This document shows, piece by piece, positions 6,505 to 18,178 of a stretch of 64,000 bases of DNA (positions are counted from its first letter, which is position 1; each line of letters starts with the position of its first letter). The notes beneath the pieces are model-generated. The model saw nothing but the letters and a program-made list of their open reading frames with translations, was not told where the DNA came from and ran no database searches. This DNA comes from Bacteroidota bacterium (GTDB taxonomy: Bacteria > Bacteroidota > Ignavibacteria > Kapaibacteriales > Kapaibacteriaceae). Position numbers and translations under genes: made by a program. Location: assembly GCA_018266735.1 (NCBI GenBank), contig JAFDZT010000007.1, positions 62,001 through 126,000 on the forward strand, read 5' to 3'.

Positions 6505-9336
<2,832 letters not shown>

Positions 9337-9383: not shown

Positions 9384-10526
9384 ATGGAACACCGCGAACG
9401 GACCCTGTTGCCATTGCTAACGTTGTCGTTGCTGGTCTCGGCGACACTTGGCGTACTGATGCGCGCGACGCCGTTCCTCTCCATTCCCCTTTCGTTCGAT
9501 CATCTCCGTCATGCCCATTCCCACTGGGGATTCCTGGGATGGGTCTTTGCATCCTTCGCGCTGATCGTGCCGTCGGCATTCGGCATCGAACGGCTGCAAC
9601 GATCGTGGTACCGCATGTTGTGGATCGCATCGCAGACGGTGGCCTTGGTGGCGGTGACGTTCCTTGTCACCCAGGGCTATGCCGGACCTGCCATCGTTGC
9701 ACTGGCTGTGCATGGACTCTTGACGTCGACCATGTTGGCGGCGATCATCATGTCCCTTCCCGGCAACATGAGCGGACGCACACTCCAGATCGCCTCCCTA
9801 GCCGCCATTGTCTCGACGCTTGCTCCCCTGCTCACGTCAACGCTACCGAGACTCATGCCGTGGTTCACGGGTCTTGACGGGATCGATGGCGTACGCTTCT
9901 ACATGTCGGTGCAGATCGAGGGCTTCTTCCTCATCGGAGTGATGGGGCTCTTACTTCGGATGATCGAAGTGGGAAGCGGTCGGATCTCTCCGTGGCTCTT
10001 CGTGCCTGCTCTGCTATCGATGATCGGCGCCCTCTTCGTCACGTCAGACCTTTTGGCAGCGGCGCTGCGCGCCGCGTCCATCGCCTTCATCGTGGTGATC
10101 GTCATTCGCACGATGCCGCAACTACTGCATGTGCTCAGTGGCACATCGACCATGGTCATCATGGTCGTCCTTGGCGCCCTTATCGTCCGCTCCCTTGCCG
10201 CCCTCGGCATTGCCCTTCTTGCTTATGCCGGACATGACGTCAGCACACCAGCACTGCGCATACTTCTCTTTCACGTGGTCTTCCTCGGCATCATCACTCC
10301 CGTCATCTTCGTCTCAGTGCGTGTCTGGTTCGGCATGCGCATCGCACGCATGACGTGGATCGTCTACACCATCGGCGTCACCGGCACGTTGCTCGTCCTG
10401 CTTACACAGAGCATCGGCCTTGATCTCCCCTACACTGAAGAGGCGCTGCTTGCCTTCGCAGTTGTGATCGCCGGTGCGACGTTGATGACCGTGCCGGCGG
10501 CGATGAGGCACTTTGTGCGACACTAA
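9384..10526 (+). CDS. Polytopic membrane protein with HAHSH motif
   Basis: This 380-residue protein is almost entirely hydrophobic, with about 11-12 membrane spans. Near the N-terminus it reads HLRHAHSHWGFLGWVFASF. A histidine cluster of the form H-A-H-S-H followed by G-W is seen in heme-copper-oxidase-like and NnrS-like membrane proteins, where histidines may bind haem. I cannot assign it to a named family with confidence. It is divergent from the tpl-tnaA pair. Its last codons (GTG CGA CAC) form the first copy of the GTGCGACAC repeat that continues downstream. Confidence 0.55.
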   Translation: MEHRERTLLPLLTLSLLVSATLGVLMRATPFLSIPLSFDHLRHAHSHWGFLGWVFASFALIVPSAFGIERLQRSWYRMLWIASQTVALVAVTFLVTQGYAGPAIVALAVHGLLTSTMLAAIIMSLPGNMSGRTLQIASLAAIVSTLAPLLTSTLPRLMPWFTGLDGIDGVRFYMSVQIEGFFLIGVMGLLLRMIEVGSGRISPWLFVPALLSMIGALFVTSDLLAAALRAASIAFIVVIVIRTMPQLLHVLSGTSTMVIMVVLGALIVRSLAALGIALLAYAGHDVSTPALRILLFHVVFLGIITPVIFVSVRVWFGMRIARMTWIVYTIGVTGTLLVLLTQSIGLDLPYTEEALLAFAVVIAGATLMTVPAAMRHFVRH

Positions 10527-10574
10527 AAGAACGCCTTCGGCGTGCGACACGGAGTGCGACACGGAGTGCGACAC
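10515..10574 (+). repeat. GTGCGACAC 12-bp tandem array (left copy)
   Basis: GTGCGACAC occurs at 10515-10523 (inside the preceding gene's last codons), 10542-10550, 10554-10562 and 10566-10574. The last three are 12 bp apart. A small hairpin ACGCC-TTC-GGCGT lies at 10531-10543. The complement of this unit forms a larger array at 18073-18178. It is followed by an imperfect repeat of CTTTTACTTCT up to about 10625. Confidence 0.8.
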
Positions 10575-10644
10575 TTCTGCTTTTACTTCTGCTCTTACTT
10601 CTCTTTTACTTCTCTTTTACTTCTTCCTTCCTTGCTTTCTTTCC

Positions 10645-10680
10645 CTACATTTTGTAGACTTGCACTCCACAATTTGTAGG
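10645..10680 (+). promoter_or_regulatory. Twin operator-like palindromes upstream of the mutasome operon
   Basis: Two related palindromes lie just before the ATG at 10688: CTACA-TTT-TGTAG at 10645-10657 and CCACAATTTGTAGG at 10667-10680. Both approximate CCTACAAnTTTGTAGG. Their centres are about 22 bp apart, two helical turns, which suits binding by two dimers of a helix-turn-helix repressor. The adjacent HTH-UmuD protein is the obvious candidate for autoregulation. Confidence 0.5.
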
Positions 10681-10687
10681 ATTCGCC

Positions 10688-11389
10688 ATGTCGAAGGCAG
10701 CGATCGGACAACGGCACCGGACGGTGCGTGAAACGATACTGAAGATGTCCGTGGCCGACTATGCACGGACCCTCTCCGTGAAAGAGAACACCGTCTACTC
10801 GTGGGAGAACGGACGCACCTCCGTCCCCCAAACCGCCCTGGCCTACTTGGAGCGGCACGGTATCTCGGCGGGCTGGATGCTGACGGGAGAAGGGTCACAG
10901 AAGGCGGCACGGCAGCGGCAGGAGCCGACCGTTGAGCTGGAGCATCATCTGGGGGCGATGCAGCGCATTGTCACAGACCTGAAGCAGCGCCCCATCACTA
11001 TGGGTGTGCGCATTCCCATGCTGAGCATCGGCGTGAGCGCCGGTACGCCAACGGCATCGGACGATACCATCGAACGCGAGATCGACCTGGCCGAGATGCT
11101 GCTCGAACATCCCGAGCAGACCTACTTCATTCGCGTGGTGGGCGACTCGATGACGGATGCCGGCATTTCGAATGGTGATACGCTCATCGTGGACTGTGCT
11201 GTGGATCCCAAGCCCGGACAAGTGGTGATCGCCAAGGTGTTCGGAGAACTGACGGTGAAGCGCTATATGCAGCGGAACGGACGTCCGGTGCTGCGCGCAG
11301 AGAACAAACGCTATAAGGACATTGCCATAACGGCCGACATGGATTTTCGCATCGTTGGCGTGGTACGTTCCTGCATCAAGGCATTCTGA
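10688..11389 (+). CDS. HTH-UmuD/LexA-like self-cleaving regulator (XRE-type HTH plus S24 peptidase)
   Basis: This 233-residue protein fuses an N-terminal XRE/CI-like helix-turn-helix (about 8-60, with VKENTVYSWENGR) to a UmuD-like S24 domain (about 108-233). The Ala118-Gly119 cleavage site, Ser154 in VGDSM and Lys191 in GELTVKRY keep the E. coli UmuD spacing exactly (36 and 37 residues). DNA damage and RecA filament should therefore trigger self-cleavage. It leads an operon with imuB and dnaE2, so it probably represses the operon, and a cleaved form may also assist translesion synthesis as UmuD' does. Twin palindromes upstream suggest autoregulation. It takes the place usually held by imuA or lexA. 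Confidence 0.85.
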   Translation: MSKAAIGQRHRTVRETILKMSVADYARTLSVKENTVYSWENGRTSVPQTALAYLERHGISAGWMLTGEGSQKAARQRQEPTVELEHHLGAMQRIVTDLKQRPITMGVRIPMLSIGVSAGTPTASDDTIEREIDLAEMLLEHPEQTYFIRVVGDSMTDAGISNGDTLIVDCAVDPKPGQVVIAKVFGELTVKRYMQRNGRPVLRAENKRYKDIAITADMDFRIVGVVRSCIKAF

Positions 11390-15700: not shown

Positions 15701-16063
15701 TTCGTGACCCTTGAAGACGAGACCGGATTCGTCCAATGCGTCGTCCAGCCCGAGGCGCGCGAGCAATTCTCACAACACCTCCGCAAGGCCTCACTCATCA
15801 TCCGCGGCAAGGTCCACGCCGTCAACAACTGGCGCGGCATCGTCGTCACCGACGTCCGTCCCCTCACCGGCGTCATCGGCGGCTACTACGGTCATCCCGC
15901 GATGTATGGCGGAACGGATGAGATGGAAATGGGAAGAGGCGATCAGAATACAGAATACATGATCAAGAATTCAATCAATGATCAAGGATCAATGATACGA
16001 GCAGGTCGCAAAACGACCGACGCTACACGGCCCCCCTTTTCATCAATTGACCTGCCACAATGA
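12785..16063 (+). CDS. dnaE2: Error-prone DNA polymerase III alpha subunit DnaE2
   Basis: This 1092-residue C-family polymerase carries an N-terminal PHP domain (MHYGSLHTRSHFSFLAGAS), a palm with catalytic Asp381 and Asp383 in PDIDVDFD and Asp531 in LVKFDVLGL, fingers, helix-hairpin-helix, and an OB fold near 940-1030. Length and operon with imuB identify it as DnaE2, the polymerase of SOS mutagenesis, rather than replicative DnaE. The last 40 or so residues are odd: they read through an intergenic-style repeat rich in GATCA (about 15941-16000) and end inside the converging immunity gene. The ancestral stop has probably been lost. Confidence 0.93.
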   Translation: MHYGSLHTRSHFSFLAGASSPDELAAQAHALGHSFVGLTDRMGVYGAVRLQRACATYGLKPIIGAEVTVEGAPLVLIARSMRGYTSLCSLLTVAHQCDRSDPQVTLDDCAQHRDDLICLTGGREGRYWQLMHARDHDAAQQWLQTLRSVYGSDVVIELLHHRRPRDGAIAERMVAMGAAMQIDVCIGGDVRYATADDYMIYDVMTCTREGITIFDHHTARPVNDQQCLRSYRDLSSLLPYPQAFATMARIADACSYDILPDHITPPGARLPEGVKADDVLRALCNAAFTKRYANDTANVEYAADLLEHELTVICDLALADFFLVVHEVTQEARRQGIRCSGRGSAANSIVAYLLGITGVDPIRHHLLFERFLHRGRKGTPDIDVDFDSDRRNEVITWMEERFGPEQTAMTGTLITYRLRMAVRDAAKALGWPMEVVNAMSKAVPGYTNKPIADYAEELATVVGPSPLLQTLLRVVERMLDRPRHLGLHSGGMILSARPLTTLTPVQVSANGVTVVQFDKDDVEAMGLVKFDVLGLRMLACISETLELIERYEGHRPDVDELSLDDPHVFQMIKDGRTLGVFQIESQGQMHLLAQHQPDCFDDLVSEVALFRPGPLQGGMVNPYVRRRRGQEPVQYLHPHLEPILRDTLGIVLFQEQVLEIAHKFAGMSLQDADDFRALVSKNRDLKALAIMRKRFIRGAMQRGVDLAAAEAVYDKVSHFVGYGFCRSHAAAFAKIVYQSAWLKHYHPAAYLAAFMQHRPGFYNLMTLEEEARRCGVEVLLPDINASWFRYELAHSSTGALAIRKPLTSIKGCTEDVARSILWARLMGPFTSTEDLIRRVDLDVDVASAIALSGALDRLARDSRTAMWEVGVALKRKARPSLDFEAQTSVFDLPLVMDDDVPHLPTLRAQERLAYDYMTHRAARLHPMTLYRRALNDMEVRTIATAFRSTVKEITIGGIVILRQSPPTAHGVLFVTLEDETGFVQCVVQPEAREQFSQHLRKASLIIRGKVHAVNNWRGIVVTDVRPLTGVIGGYYGHPAMYGGTDEMEMGRGDQNTEYMIKNSINDQGSMIRAGRKTTDATRPPFSSIDLPQ

Positions 16064-16562
16064 GTTCATGTGGCAATTCAACATGAAGGTCTGAGAATAC
16101 TTCCACCAATCCCTCATATGCCAGTCCATATTCACCGACATCGATGAACTCGTCGATCAGTTCCAAATCGAGCGACGACGATATTCTCAGGATCACAATC
16201 TCTAGTTTCGAACGAGCGGAGAGCAACAACACCTCAAGCCTTTTAAAGTGAGGAATCAAATCATGACGGACGGGGGAGTAACAAGATCGAACCGCCACCA
16301 TGCGCTTTCCACCAGACAATTCCTGCTCCTCAACAAAGACCAATGTACCTGGCGGATACTCCCACACCTCTACGGATCTAACTCTATGCAGTTCAGCTCC
16401 CTGAACAACGAAGAGTTGATCGCGTAGACGCAATGCTGGAACCGGCTTCAATACTGCTGCGCCTTCTTCCATGATCGGTATGTGAATGATCTCAAACATC
16501 GGTCCGAATATATGAATGCTTGGTTCCGTCAACCCATTCTTCAAGTGCAATGACGTGAACAA
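16023..16562 (-). CDS. MafI-like immunity protein candidate
   Basis: This protein has up to 179 residues. The C-terminal third (LELIDEFIDVGEYGLAYEGL, then LPHELIVAGQLMK) fits the helical pattern of MafI-family immunity proteins, which protect against secreted polymorphic toxins. The N-terminal part is a beta-rich domain I do not recognise. The start is uncertain. TTG at 16562 has GGAG 11 bases upstream, and an ATG at 16499 would give 158 residues. The frame stays open a little further upstream, so the natural 5' end may have been altered by the repeat insertion at 16582. Its 3' end overlaps dnaE2 by 41 bases. The region is AT-richer than its surroundings. Confidence 0.5.
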   Translation of the reverse strand: MFTSLHLKNGLTEPSIHIFGPMFEIIHIPIMEEGAAVLKPVPALRLRDQLFVVQGAELHRVRSVEVWEYPPGTLVFVEEQELSGGKRMVAVRSCYSPVRHDLIPHFKRLEVLLLSARSKLEIVILRISSSLDLELIDEFIDVGEYGLAYEGLVEVFSDLHVELPHELIVAGQLMKRGAV

Positions 16563-16579
16563 GATGAGGATATCTCCGT

Positions 16580-16702
16580 TTAGAAATGAAGGAAGAACGC
16601 ATCCGTGAGTTCGCCATCATCAACCATACGTATGTACACGTCGATAAGTTCATGGATAGCCACTACCGCATCCTCGGTGATCCAACCAAAATGATCAACG
16701 AC
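16580..16702 (-). pseudogene. 3' remnant of the 17528-17941 immunity-like gene
   Basis: The 121 bases 16582-16702 match 17530-17650 with only three differences. They encode the same C-terminal 40 residues (VVDHFGWITEDAV through FFLHF), because all three changes are synonymous. The fragment ends in its own TAA stop (16580-16582). Upstream in frame a TGA comes after only three codons and there is no start codon, so it is a truncated copy. It lies between the SUKH gene and the MafI-like gene on the same strand. Confidence 0.85.
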
Positions 16703-16758
16703 AACAGAGATTCACCTCGTTCACGAATGTATTACACATCAGACCTCTGATCATCAGA

Positions 16759-17355
16759 TCACGTTTGAGTTTCTTGCTCTCGAAGAAGCTTGATCTCTCG
16801 ATTCCAATACCGTACCGCCTGCACGTGCTGTTCCTTTGTCAGAACCACTACATTCGATGGGTCATGCGGACTCCCGCCGAGTATCGCCGGGTGGATCTGG
16901 AAGAGCTCCTTACCTCGCAGCTCCTCACCACCCCTCTCATTCGTTTCATAATCACTGCTCTCTCCGATTGACATCAGGAAACCCTCGAATGATGTCGACT
17001 CGACCTCGATCAATGATCTCGACATCCCAACAAATGGCACACGAATGATTTTCATCTCACCATCTATTCGGTCGATCCCGAATGCTTCACCTCCACCACT
17101 CGAACCGATCAACACGACTCCGGGGCAATAGAGTGCTGTTTCATAGTCAGCATTGAACTCAGCCAATTCTCGAACACTCCATAGCGTCAAGTAGGAGCCC
17201 TCACCAATGAACCCGTCACCTCCATCCATGCTCATCATAAACTGCTTGTAATCCATTGGCAATGTGATTCCAAGTGCTTTCTCCGCATCCGCCACATCGT
17301 CCACAGAAGCACCCGCTCTTCCTTGAAACGATAACAATACATTCTCCATGCTCAT
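16759..17355 (-). CDS. SMI1/KNR4 (SUKH) family immunity-type protein
   Basis: This 198-residue protein starts at ATG 17355, chosen because GGAGG lies eight bases upstream; a longer frame to 17415 lacks such a site. The N-terminal region has the SUKH pattern (DVADAEKALGITLPMDYKQF, then MDGGDGFIGEGSYLTLWSV, then GSSGGGEAFGID). The C-terminal tail (HPAILGGSPHDPSNVVVLT, then AVRYWNREI) is commonly attached to SUKH immunity proteins. SUKH proteins neutralise diverse nuclease and other toxins by direct binding. No toxin gene is in the window, so this is an orphan immunity gene. It is bracketed by two copies of a 121-bp direct repeat. Confidence 0.8.
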   Translation of the reverse strand: MSMENVLLSFQGRAGASVDDVADAEKALGITLPMDYKQFMMSMDGGDGFIGEGSYLTLWSVRELAEFNADYETALYCPGVVLIGSSGGGEAFGIDRIDGEMKIIRVPFVGMSRSLIEVESTSFEGFLMSIGESSDYETNERGGEELRGKELFQIHPAILGGSPHDPSNVVVLTKEQHVQAVRYWNREIKLLREQETQT

Positions 17356-17527
17356 TGACTCATCCTCCAGGTGGAAATCAGAAGTGAATAGTTCCATTCG
17401 CTCAACGATGCACACTCCACATGAGTGAACAAGACCTTCCTTGATCTTAACCTACAGAATGTGTACAACCACACGATTGGGGCTGTGTGGAATTGAATGA
17501 TGTGATCTTAACGCGCGGGTTCCACAT

Positions 17528-17941
17528 TCAGAAATGAAGGAAGAACGCATCCGTGAGTTCGCCATCATCAACCATGCGAATGTACACGTCGATAAGTTCA
17601 TGGATAGCCACTACTGCATCCTCGGTGATCCAACCAAAATGATCAACGACCCTCTTCACGAGTTCATCTTCACTGATCGTGATCATATCGATATCAACAA
17701 GATTGTTCTCCGCCAAGTAGTCACAGAGATCCTTGACCTTGCTTTGAGGGAAGGGCTCGGTGCACAAATCCCACATGAAGTCCTGCATCTCCTCATCGGG
17801 CTCGTCCATCAATTCAGGAATTTGATTGTACTCCGCTGTACCATGCACTTTACAATCTTCTACACGAATTTTCACAAGACGAAAATCCATGGTCGCGAAA
17901 AACGCTTTCAAGAATGCAACGATCAAGTTCTCGGGGACCAT
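17528..17941 (-). CDS. Small acidic protein of the immunity island, unknown family
   Basis: This 137-residue acidic protein has an AAGGAG site seven bases before the ATG. It is mostly helical by eye, with EPDEEMQDFMWDLCTEPFP in the middle and a C-terminal helical pair (EDAVVAIHELIDVYIRMVDD). I do not recognise the family. Small size, acidity, position beside a SUKH gene and partial duplication of its 3' end downstream of that gene make an immunity role the best guess. It is first in a leftward cluster followed by the SUKH gene, the 3' remnant and the MafI-like gene. Base composition is AT-rich like the rest of the island. Confidence 0.55.
   Translation of the reverse strand: MVPENLIVAFLKAFFATMDFRLVKIRVEDCKVHGTAEYNQIPELMDEPDEEMQDFMWDLCTEPFPQSKVKDLCDYLAENNLVDIDMITISEDELVKRVVDHFGWITEDAVVAIHELIDVYIRMVDDGELTDAFFLHF
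17530..17650. repeat. 121-bp direct repeat, second copy
   Basis: This matches 16582-16702 in the same orientation with three differences. The two copies flank about 830 bp containing the SUKH gene. Recombination between them would delete or exchange that gene and leave one intact 3' end of the 137-residue gene. Confidence 0.9.
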
Positions 17942-18072
17942 TCTTCTTCTCCTTGTTCACGCTGTCTCAGTACTTTTGAATGTATGAGGTTCTTCCATCT
18001 ACGAGTATGCTTTTGAATTTACGACAGCCTCAGATTCTCTGAGCACCTACTTGATCTATAGCTCTACACGAA

Positions 18073-18178
18073 GTGTCGCACTCCGTGTCGCACGAAGTGT
18101 CCCACGCAGTGTCCCACGCAGTGTCCCACGCAAGTGTCCCACAAAGTGTCGCACTCCGTGTCGCACAAAGTGTCGCAC
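18073..18178 (+). repeat. GTGTCGCAC / GTGTCCCAC 12-bp tandem array (right copy)
   Basis: There are nine copies of GTGTSSCAC-type 9-mers, almost all 12 bp apart: at 18073, 18085, 18097, 18109, 18121, 18134, 18146, 18158 and 18170. The three-base linkers are mostly TCC, AAA or GCA. The unit is the reverse complement of the array at 10515-10574. It fills most of the gap between the immunity island and truA; the rest of that gap (17942-18072) holds no gene that I can see. Confidence 0.88.

Follow-up and report, generated by a model that had tools for sequence, protein, structure and literature searches.

The window analyzed here, a stretch of 64,000 nucleotides from a Bacteroidota bacterium, contains a low-G+C island at positions 15950 to 18050 (windows of 44 to 50%) between a gene for DNA polymerase III alpha (PF07733; E value, 8.7e-76) and one for tRNA pseudouridine synthase (PF01416; E value, 3.9e-41), which we read as a probable truA. 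Genes within the island have 46 to 50% G+C, compared to ~60% in the flanking genes. Three of them are co-oriented on the minus strand, and no further gene was assigned in between. Gene X (17528 to 17941) is intact, encodes 137 residues, and belongs to an almost orphan family with a weak match to PF20212/DUF6572 (21 bits, with a cutoff of 27); we treat its product as a putative immunity protein. A 172-base spacer (17356 to 17527) leads from the X stop codon to the likely start of a SUKH gene (16759 to 17355). The open reading frame (ORF) of the latter extends to 17415, and the start at 17355 is likely because five aligned homologs begin at or next to residue 21. The end of the SUKH gene (16759 to 16932, stop codon included) encodes a C-terminal tail that is homologous to the C-terminal domain of toxins encoded ahead of SUKH genes of the same family in other genomes. 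A 56-base junction (16703 to 16758) then separates the SUKH stop codon from a headless remnant of X (16580 to 16702), behind which lies a 179-residue ORF (16023 to 16562). This ORF is a possible MafI-like immunity gene, with a match of 17.8 bits falling below the cutoff of 31; its database entry comprises 158 residues from an inner start, and one protein database search returned only this genome's own protein. X, SUKH, and the MafI-like gene would together form a small orphan immunity array without toxins. Pfam searches (E value up to 0.001) gave no secretion or toxin families among 10 neighboring proteins (7.9 to 23.2 kb), and no further repeat was common to the island spacers, which share only short matches of 10 to 20 bases. 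Rfam and plasmid searches returned no useful match, and a promoter and terminator scan gave results at the background level.

Tandem repeats of 12 bases (GTGTC[CG]CACNNN) occur at 10542 to 10574 on the minus strand and at 18073 to 18178 on the plus strand. The two arrays are inverted relative to each other and lie on either side of S24-peptidase, IMS, and polymerase genes plus the immunity island. A 33-base pattern of these repeats had 140 matches in the genome (94 + 46), none in a backward control, and none in a same-genus genome or in two family members. Along a 15-kb stretch of contig C7, the repeats are mostly located in the 3' parts of successive ORFs of ~700 residues, as delimited by mechanical ORF calls.

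The SUKH gene is bracketed by a direct repeat. Positions 16582 to 16702 and 17530 to 17650 are in the same orientation and differ at 3 of 121 bases; a repeat finder lengthens the pair to 124 bases (16579 to 16702 and 17527 to 17650; 97% identity), with the copies 948 bases apart. On the minus strand and in the X reading frame, the two copies specify one and the same 40-residue sequence, followed by a stop codon. One (17528 to 17650) comprises codons 98 to 137 and the TGA stop of intact X; the other (16580 to 16702) comprises 40 codons and the TAA stop of an X allele. The latter has in-frame stops just ahead of it and no ATG, GTG, or TTG start before its 40 codons and is therefore not read as a gene. 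In this frame the copies differ at 4 of 123 bases, all synonymous (GCA/GCG, ATT/ATA, CGC/CGT, and the stops TGA/TAA). Their identity is limited by codon 98 at one end and by a position one base past the stop codon at the other. Beyond that base the similarity vanishes, and the DNA behind one copy does not align with that behind the other, including in register across the 172-base spacer. A genome-wide search (E value up to 1) returned six matches, namely, the two copies (E values of 1.5e-59 and 4e-54) and four with E values of 0.36 or worse, so the genome holds no third copy; with only two good matches, chance is excluded as the source of the repeat. A sequence-only reading made earlier had described direct repeats with three differences in 121 bases, all synonymous, of which one is the 3' end of an intact gene and the other a headless remnant after the SUKH gene. 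The repeat search and codon comparison confirmed the first part of this description, and the reading of frames confirmed its anatomy.

A random substitution in the repeat would be synonymous 21 to 26% of the time. The probability that every difference is synonymous is thus 0.0019 to 0.0049 for four of four changes, the small number on which this test is based, or 0.009 to 0.018 for three of three if the stop codon is left out. By our own arithmetic, the synonymous divergence of the copies is ~0.15 per site, over ~26 synonymous sites. Since the differences are synonymous only, each copy was probably still part of a coding sequence when they arose, and the copies are best read as two alleles of X that recombination would have joined. 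Homology that ends at the stop codon, followed by nonaligning DNA, fits alleles with different neighbors. Divergence resembling that of an old neutral duplication, which the sequence-only reading had named as grounds for giving up its interpretation, was not what we found.

The identity of the bracketed gene is certain, as its product matches the SUKH family (PF09346) above the cutoff with an E value of 1.9e-14. The best structural match of its model is 3d5p (E value, 2.4e-7; TM score, 0.78 by target length), and its likely function is to shield the cell against the toxins of rivals. A relative of this SUKH protein, P0003 (71% identity), is encoded on a 950,151-base contig and did not turn up in the collections searched. 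For X, the nearest relative is P0001 (93% identity); its single contig, 1,578 bases long, comes from the source "lgn," which we take to be the Logan assemblies. The only distant relative of X found, in another genome (G093), adjoins matches to DUF7674 (weak) and Imm11 (23.5 bits, with a cutoff of 22.1) and probably sits in another immunity cluster; it is mainly because of this neighborhood that we call X an immunity protein. No relatives of X were found beside other SUKH genes, searches of viral contigs gave no useful result for X, and its structure model (mean pLDDT of 44) was uninformative. X and P0001 differ at nine residues, seven of them in the repeated 40 residues and two in the other 97 (Fisher P value of 0.0026). 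These seven cluster at 17588 to 17638 (X residues 102 to 118), inside the repeat. The repeat block thus contains the most variable part of X relative to P0001, either because 3' ends have been exchanged or because a patch that binds the toxin is under selection.

Near relatives hardly hold either gene. Among the 99 nearest genomes, this one included, X was detected in two (this genome and G093; E value up to 0.01) and SUKH in this genome only (E value up to 1e-5). Hence, SUKH was absent from 98 of the 98 other relatives and X from 97 of them, with a same-genus genome among the absentees, and neither gene was found in any of the 22 genomes searched from the same genus and family. Across 395 genomes of the phylum (again including this one), SUKH (E value up to 1e-8) occurred in five, the four others at 32 to 39% identity, and X (E value up to 0.001) in this genome only. 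The one genome from the same genus is only distantly related (64% for the polymerase and 56% for truA), and because it carries these two genes on different contigs, it offers no syntenic empty site. No empty, single-repeat, or SUKH-less allele was found, X and SUKH both being missing from the 22 genus and family genomes; nor was a donor or recipient allele found, and we therefore infer the direction and order of the events proposed below.

We also surveyed flanking repeats at other SUKH genes, using 78 SUKH loci (69 from genome contigs and 9 from viral contigs). A direct repeat within 4 kb of SUKH was present on both sides in 11 of the 68 testable loci among those from genome contigs. Nine of these were inspected (all except L087 and L107): several of the repeats we read as dispersed or MITE-like noncoding elements, that at L052 as the end of an Rhs core, and that at L071 as a shared 3' gene end. 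In a matched test, for which 35 of the 78 loci were long enough to supply control segments from the same locus, flanking repeats were seen at SUKH in 5 of 35 loci, versus 34 of 140 control segments; at a threshold of at least 90% over 40 bases, the counts were 2 of 35 and 7 of 140. Flanking repeats as a habit of SUKH genes were rejected for lack of any excess over the controls, and the bracket in the window is consequently regarded as an individual event.

Three of the surveyed loci deserve separate description. At L071, a Mesorhizobium prophage-like locus, a phage gene upstream has its final 41 bases repeated at the 3' end of the tail ORF that follows SUKH (7182 to 7222 and 10537 to 10577), so that the repeat brackets a toxin-SUKH cassette, a partial parallel to the window. 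At L062, a 109-base noncoding repeat with palindromic ends (9849 to 9957 and 10589 to 10696), MITE-like by our reading, tightly flanks a Mesorhizobium SUKH gene. At L047, from a Pirellula metagenome-assembled genome, two ORFs with like starts and unlike ends (8131 to 8667 and 9611 to 9880) precede SUKH; they are presumably HINT-like and resemble a pretoxin end that was duplicated and whose tips were swapped.

We interpret the repeat as the scar left when incoming DNA bearing X and SUKH joined a resident X allele, a reading to which we assign about an even chance of being correct. It is supported by the synonymous-only divergence of the 3' ends, by homology limited to the reading frame, by the differing DNA behind the copies, and by a low-G+C island of which the genes X and SUKH are missing in near relatives. 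According to this model, the DNA carrying gene X and SUKH would enter at the resident allele of X. Homology within X or immediately ahead of it would probably have provided the anchor, and the other side would be closed by an illegitimate join to codon 98 of the resident. The outcome would be an insertion with a long target duplication, in which the last 40 codons of the resident stand headless behind SUKH. Insertion with long target duplication was reportedly described by Nobusato in 2000 for Helicobacter restriction-modification genes. The copies are identical at the protein level, though the same segment varies in P0001, and later gene conversion may have blurred the history; since conversion would also erase synonymous differences, it cannot have been complete. 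If the scar model holds, a headless remnant with purely synonymous divergence would be a readable record of one step of array assembly, in a lineage whose kin hardly hold X and SUKH.

The same data can be explained by a second, complete X from which the 5' part was lost at a later time. Here, an array of the order X-SUKH-X'-MafI-like would have decayed by a deletion that took the first 97 codons of X', and such decay would likewise account for the synonymous-only differences, the homology up to the stop codon, and the differing DNA behind the copies. Tandem immunity paralogs are, moreover, common (PMC9484751 and PMC3482391). We nevertheless consider this history rather unlikely: the deletion must end inside X', erase every other part of that gene, and leave just 56 bases between SUKH and the remnant, and none of the genomes searched carries two full X genes. 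A local duplication by slippage or template switching, which would have placed a duplicate of the X 3' end behind SUKH and left the remnant to drift since, has the simplest topology, with the repeats in the same orientation and 948 bases apart. Drift should, however, yield mostly nonsynonymous changes, in conflict with four of four synonymous differences (P value of 0.002 to 0.005), and it would take a coincidence for the copied stretch to end a single base after the stop codon; we regard this origin as improbable.

Slightly less probable again is active module swapping, in which the shared 3' end would be a reused block of homology through which cassettes come and go by homologous recombination: the bracket geometry fits, the X segment most different from its nearest relative falls inside the block, and esaG arrays grow and shrink through recombination at shared blocks (PMC9484751), but no variant allele is known at this locus, SUKH genes show no enrichment of flanking repeats (5 of 35 versus 34 of 140; 2 of 35 versus 7 of 140), and the genome has just one such block and one such cassette. 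The sequence-only reading had seen what looked like a mechanism of this kind, and a working one was not supported, given the lack of a single-repeat or SUKH-less allele, of a flanking-repeat excess, of any further spacer repeat beyond short matches, and of a tyrosine-recombinase match within 160 kb on the contig. Its narrower claim, that homologous recombination between the copies could delete SUKH cleanly, fares better in part: the geometry of direct repeats would leave one intact X, but no deleted allele was found. RecA-type crossing-over between the copies is thus predicted to remove SUKH and restore a single intact X, and the bracket would allow clean loss of the shield gene. We file the bracket as a scar of immunity array assembly, of a known kind, and not as an active swapping device.

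The part of the finding that we consider most worth following is the SUKH tail. A conserved C-terminal tail of ~55 residues is common to the homologs of the window's SUKH, and a profile built from six SUKH proteins chosen by SUKH homology (E value up to 0.01) detected this tail or its like at 89 places in 55 of the 78 SUKH loci. Of these places, 52 lie directly behind SUKH (50 in a separate ORF and 2 in the same ORF) and 37 lie at most 400 bases in front of it. SUKH is bracketed by both the toxin domain and the tail in 33 of the 78 loci, although many loci are close kin (Mesorhizobium and Pseudomonas) and these counts are not independent. The tail is fused to SUKH in the window, whereas elsewhere it is mostly a separate ORF overlapping the SUKH stop codon; in 28 of these 50 separate ORFs, the closest ATG overlaps that stop as ATGA, and in 14 others the overlap is longer. 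In a motif-picked set, the stretch before SUKH terminates an ORF whose length, counted from stop to stop, reaches 2,962 codons, which by our reading is to be expected for an Rhs-type toxin; other such ORFs, some as short as 56 codons, may be broken or orphan ends. This genome's only RHS-repeat match (L127 / L135, G000:C8:119611-119694) lies within a 2,602-residue open frame.

The toxin ends and the tails are related. A comparison of their profiles gave a probability of 98.3%, an E value of 1.2e-14, and 36% identity, for motif-picked sets that make the comparison partly circular. A plain toxin query against the whole genome returned the window's SUKH tail as its sole match (E value, 3.5e-4; 39%), and no toxin C terminus of the SUKH-linked kind was found there. 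Later Asn and His positions are kept in nearly all toxins and tails. The two groups differ at the first polar site, which is His in 30 of 33 unique toxin sequences and, in the tails, Phe in 36 of 44 and His in 2 of 44; the window's SUKH tail is without this first conserved histidine of the toxins. Judging from the motif, the toxin end may be an HNH-like nuclease. No Pfam or NCBIfam family covered the toxin end or tail above the cutoff for the examples tested, no solved structure matched the one toxin end queried, and the tail part of the SUKH model (block pLDDT of 38 to 52) showed nothing firm. Among the papers listed by literature searches, none describes such a SUKH tail in its title or the opening of its abstract, which is no proof that no description has been published.

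Toxin ends and tails form two clades, with 1 of 74 sequences misplaced and a support of 0.895. We considered that the tail might be remade at each locus from the local toxin, an idea left unsupported by the two clades and by a mean toxin-tail identity of 0.38 both within and between loci; a faint local signal may exist, as only 2 of 500 label shuffles reached or exceeded the observed mean. The split into two clades also speaks against the tail being the product of repeated recent scars and would call for one old event. As a tentative suggestion, which we think has a smaller chance of being right than wrong, the cassette could be a two-part immunity device consisting of SUKH and a disarmed copy of the nuclease-like toxin domain that it guards against. 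The tail would in that case serve as a decoy or co-inhibitor, and the headless remnant behind an immunity gene in the window would illustrate the kind of step by which a headless toxin end might once have been captured as an immunity part. An apparently altered toxin domain beside an immunity domain, found in several phyla by record titles, would further provide a testable design for neutralization.

Several known systems resemble the locus in part. The arrays of rAID immunity genes (PMC12247911) are characterized by a tyrosine recombinase at the head, genes below 41% G+C, and conserved intergenic motifs. The window contains no tyrosine recombinase (PF00589; seven matches elsewhere in the genome, the nearest on the same contig being ~163 kb away), and its island genes, at 46 to 50% G+C, are separated by spacers that share only matches of 10 to 20 bases. 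Heterogeneous polyimmunity loci (PMC3482391) consist of co-oriented unrelated genes of immunity type without toxin genes between them, an arrangement shared by X, SUKH, and the 179-residue ORF. The island has only three such genes, of which SUKH belongs to its family above the cutoff (by the SMI1/KNR4 profile PF09346 and the fold of 3d5p) and the other two are assigned by the sub-threshold matches given above. A XerC/D-type recombinase adjoins several but not all polyimmunity loci in that account, and none is adjacent here.

The crossover blocks of esaG and tipC arrays in Firmicutes provide a second point of reference. In Staphylococcus, recombination between shared blocks of tandem esaG genes deletes the intervening DNA and makes mosaics (PMC9484751). 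The likeness lies in shared immunity gene blocks that serve as crossover points and at which deletions were observed; the difference is that esaG and tipC arrays hold many full paralogs and were studied by comparing strains, whereas the window has one full and one headless copy with an unrelated SUKH gene between them. The Helicobacter restriction-modification genes of PMC1643837, for which insertion with long target duplication is described, share with the window an inserted gene flanked by direct copies of the target. There, two strains were compared; here, the copies differ synonymously and are probably alleles, and no empty site was found.

An analogy to the proposed scar is found in the type VI secretion system (T6SS) arrays of Vibrio. 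PMC5361080 describes sequential displacement of effectors, for which homology-facilitated illegitimate recombination was proposed and in which the 3' end of the older effector gene is shifted back, leaving orphan immunity genes in a row. There, and under the scar model here as well, insertion pushes back the 3' end of an older gene, and the headless remnant 56 bases behind SUKH corresponds to the 3' remnant behind the inserted module. The displaced gene in Vibrio is an effector within a T6SS cluster, whereas in the window the remnant is immunity-like, with an intact allele opposite it, in a toxin-less island whose neighboring proteins (7.9 to 23.2 kb) gave no Pfam match to secretion or toxin families. 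Set beside these systems, the case is ordinary in kind and informative in detail.
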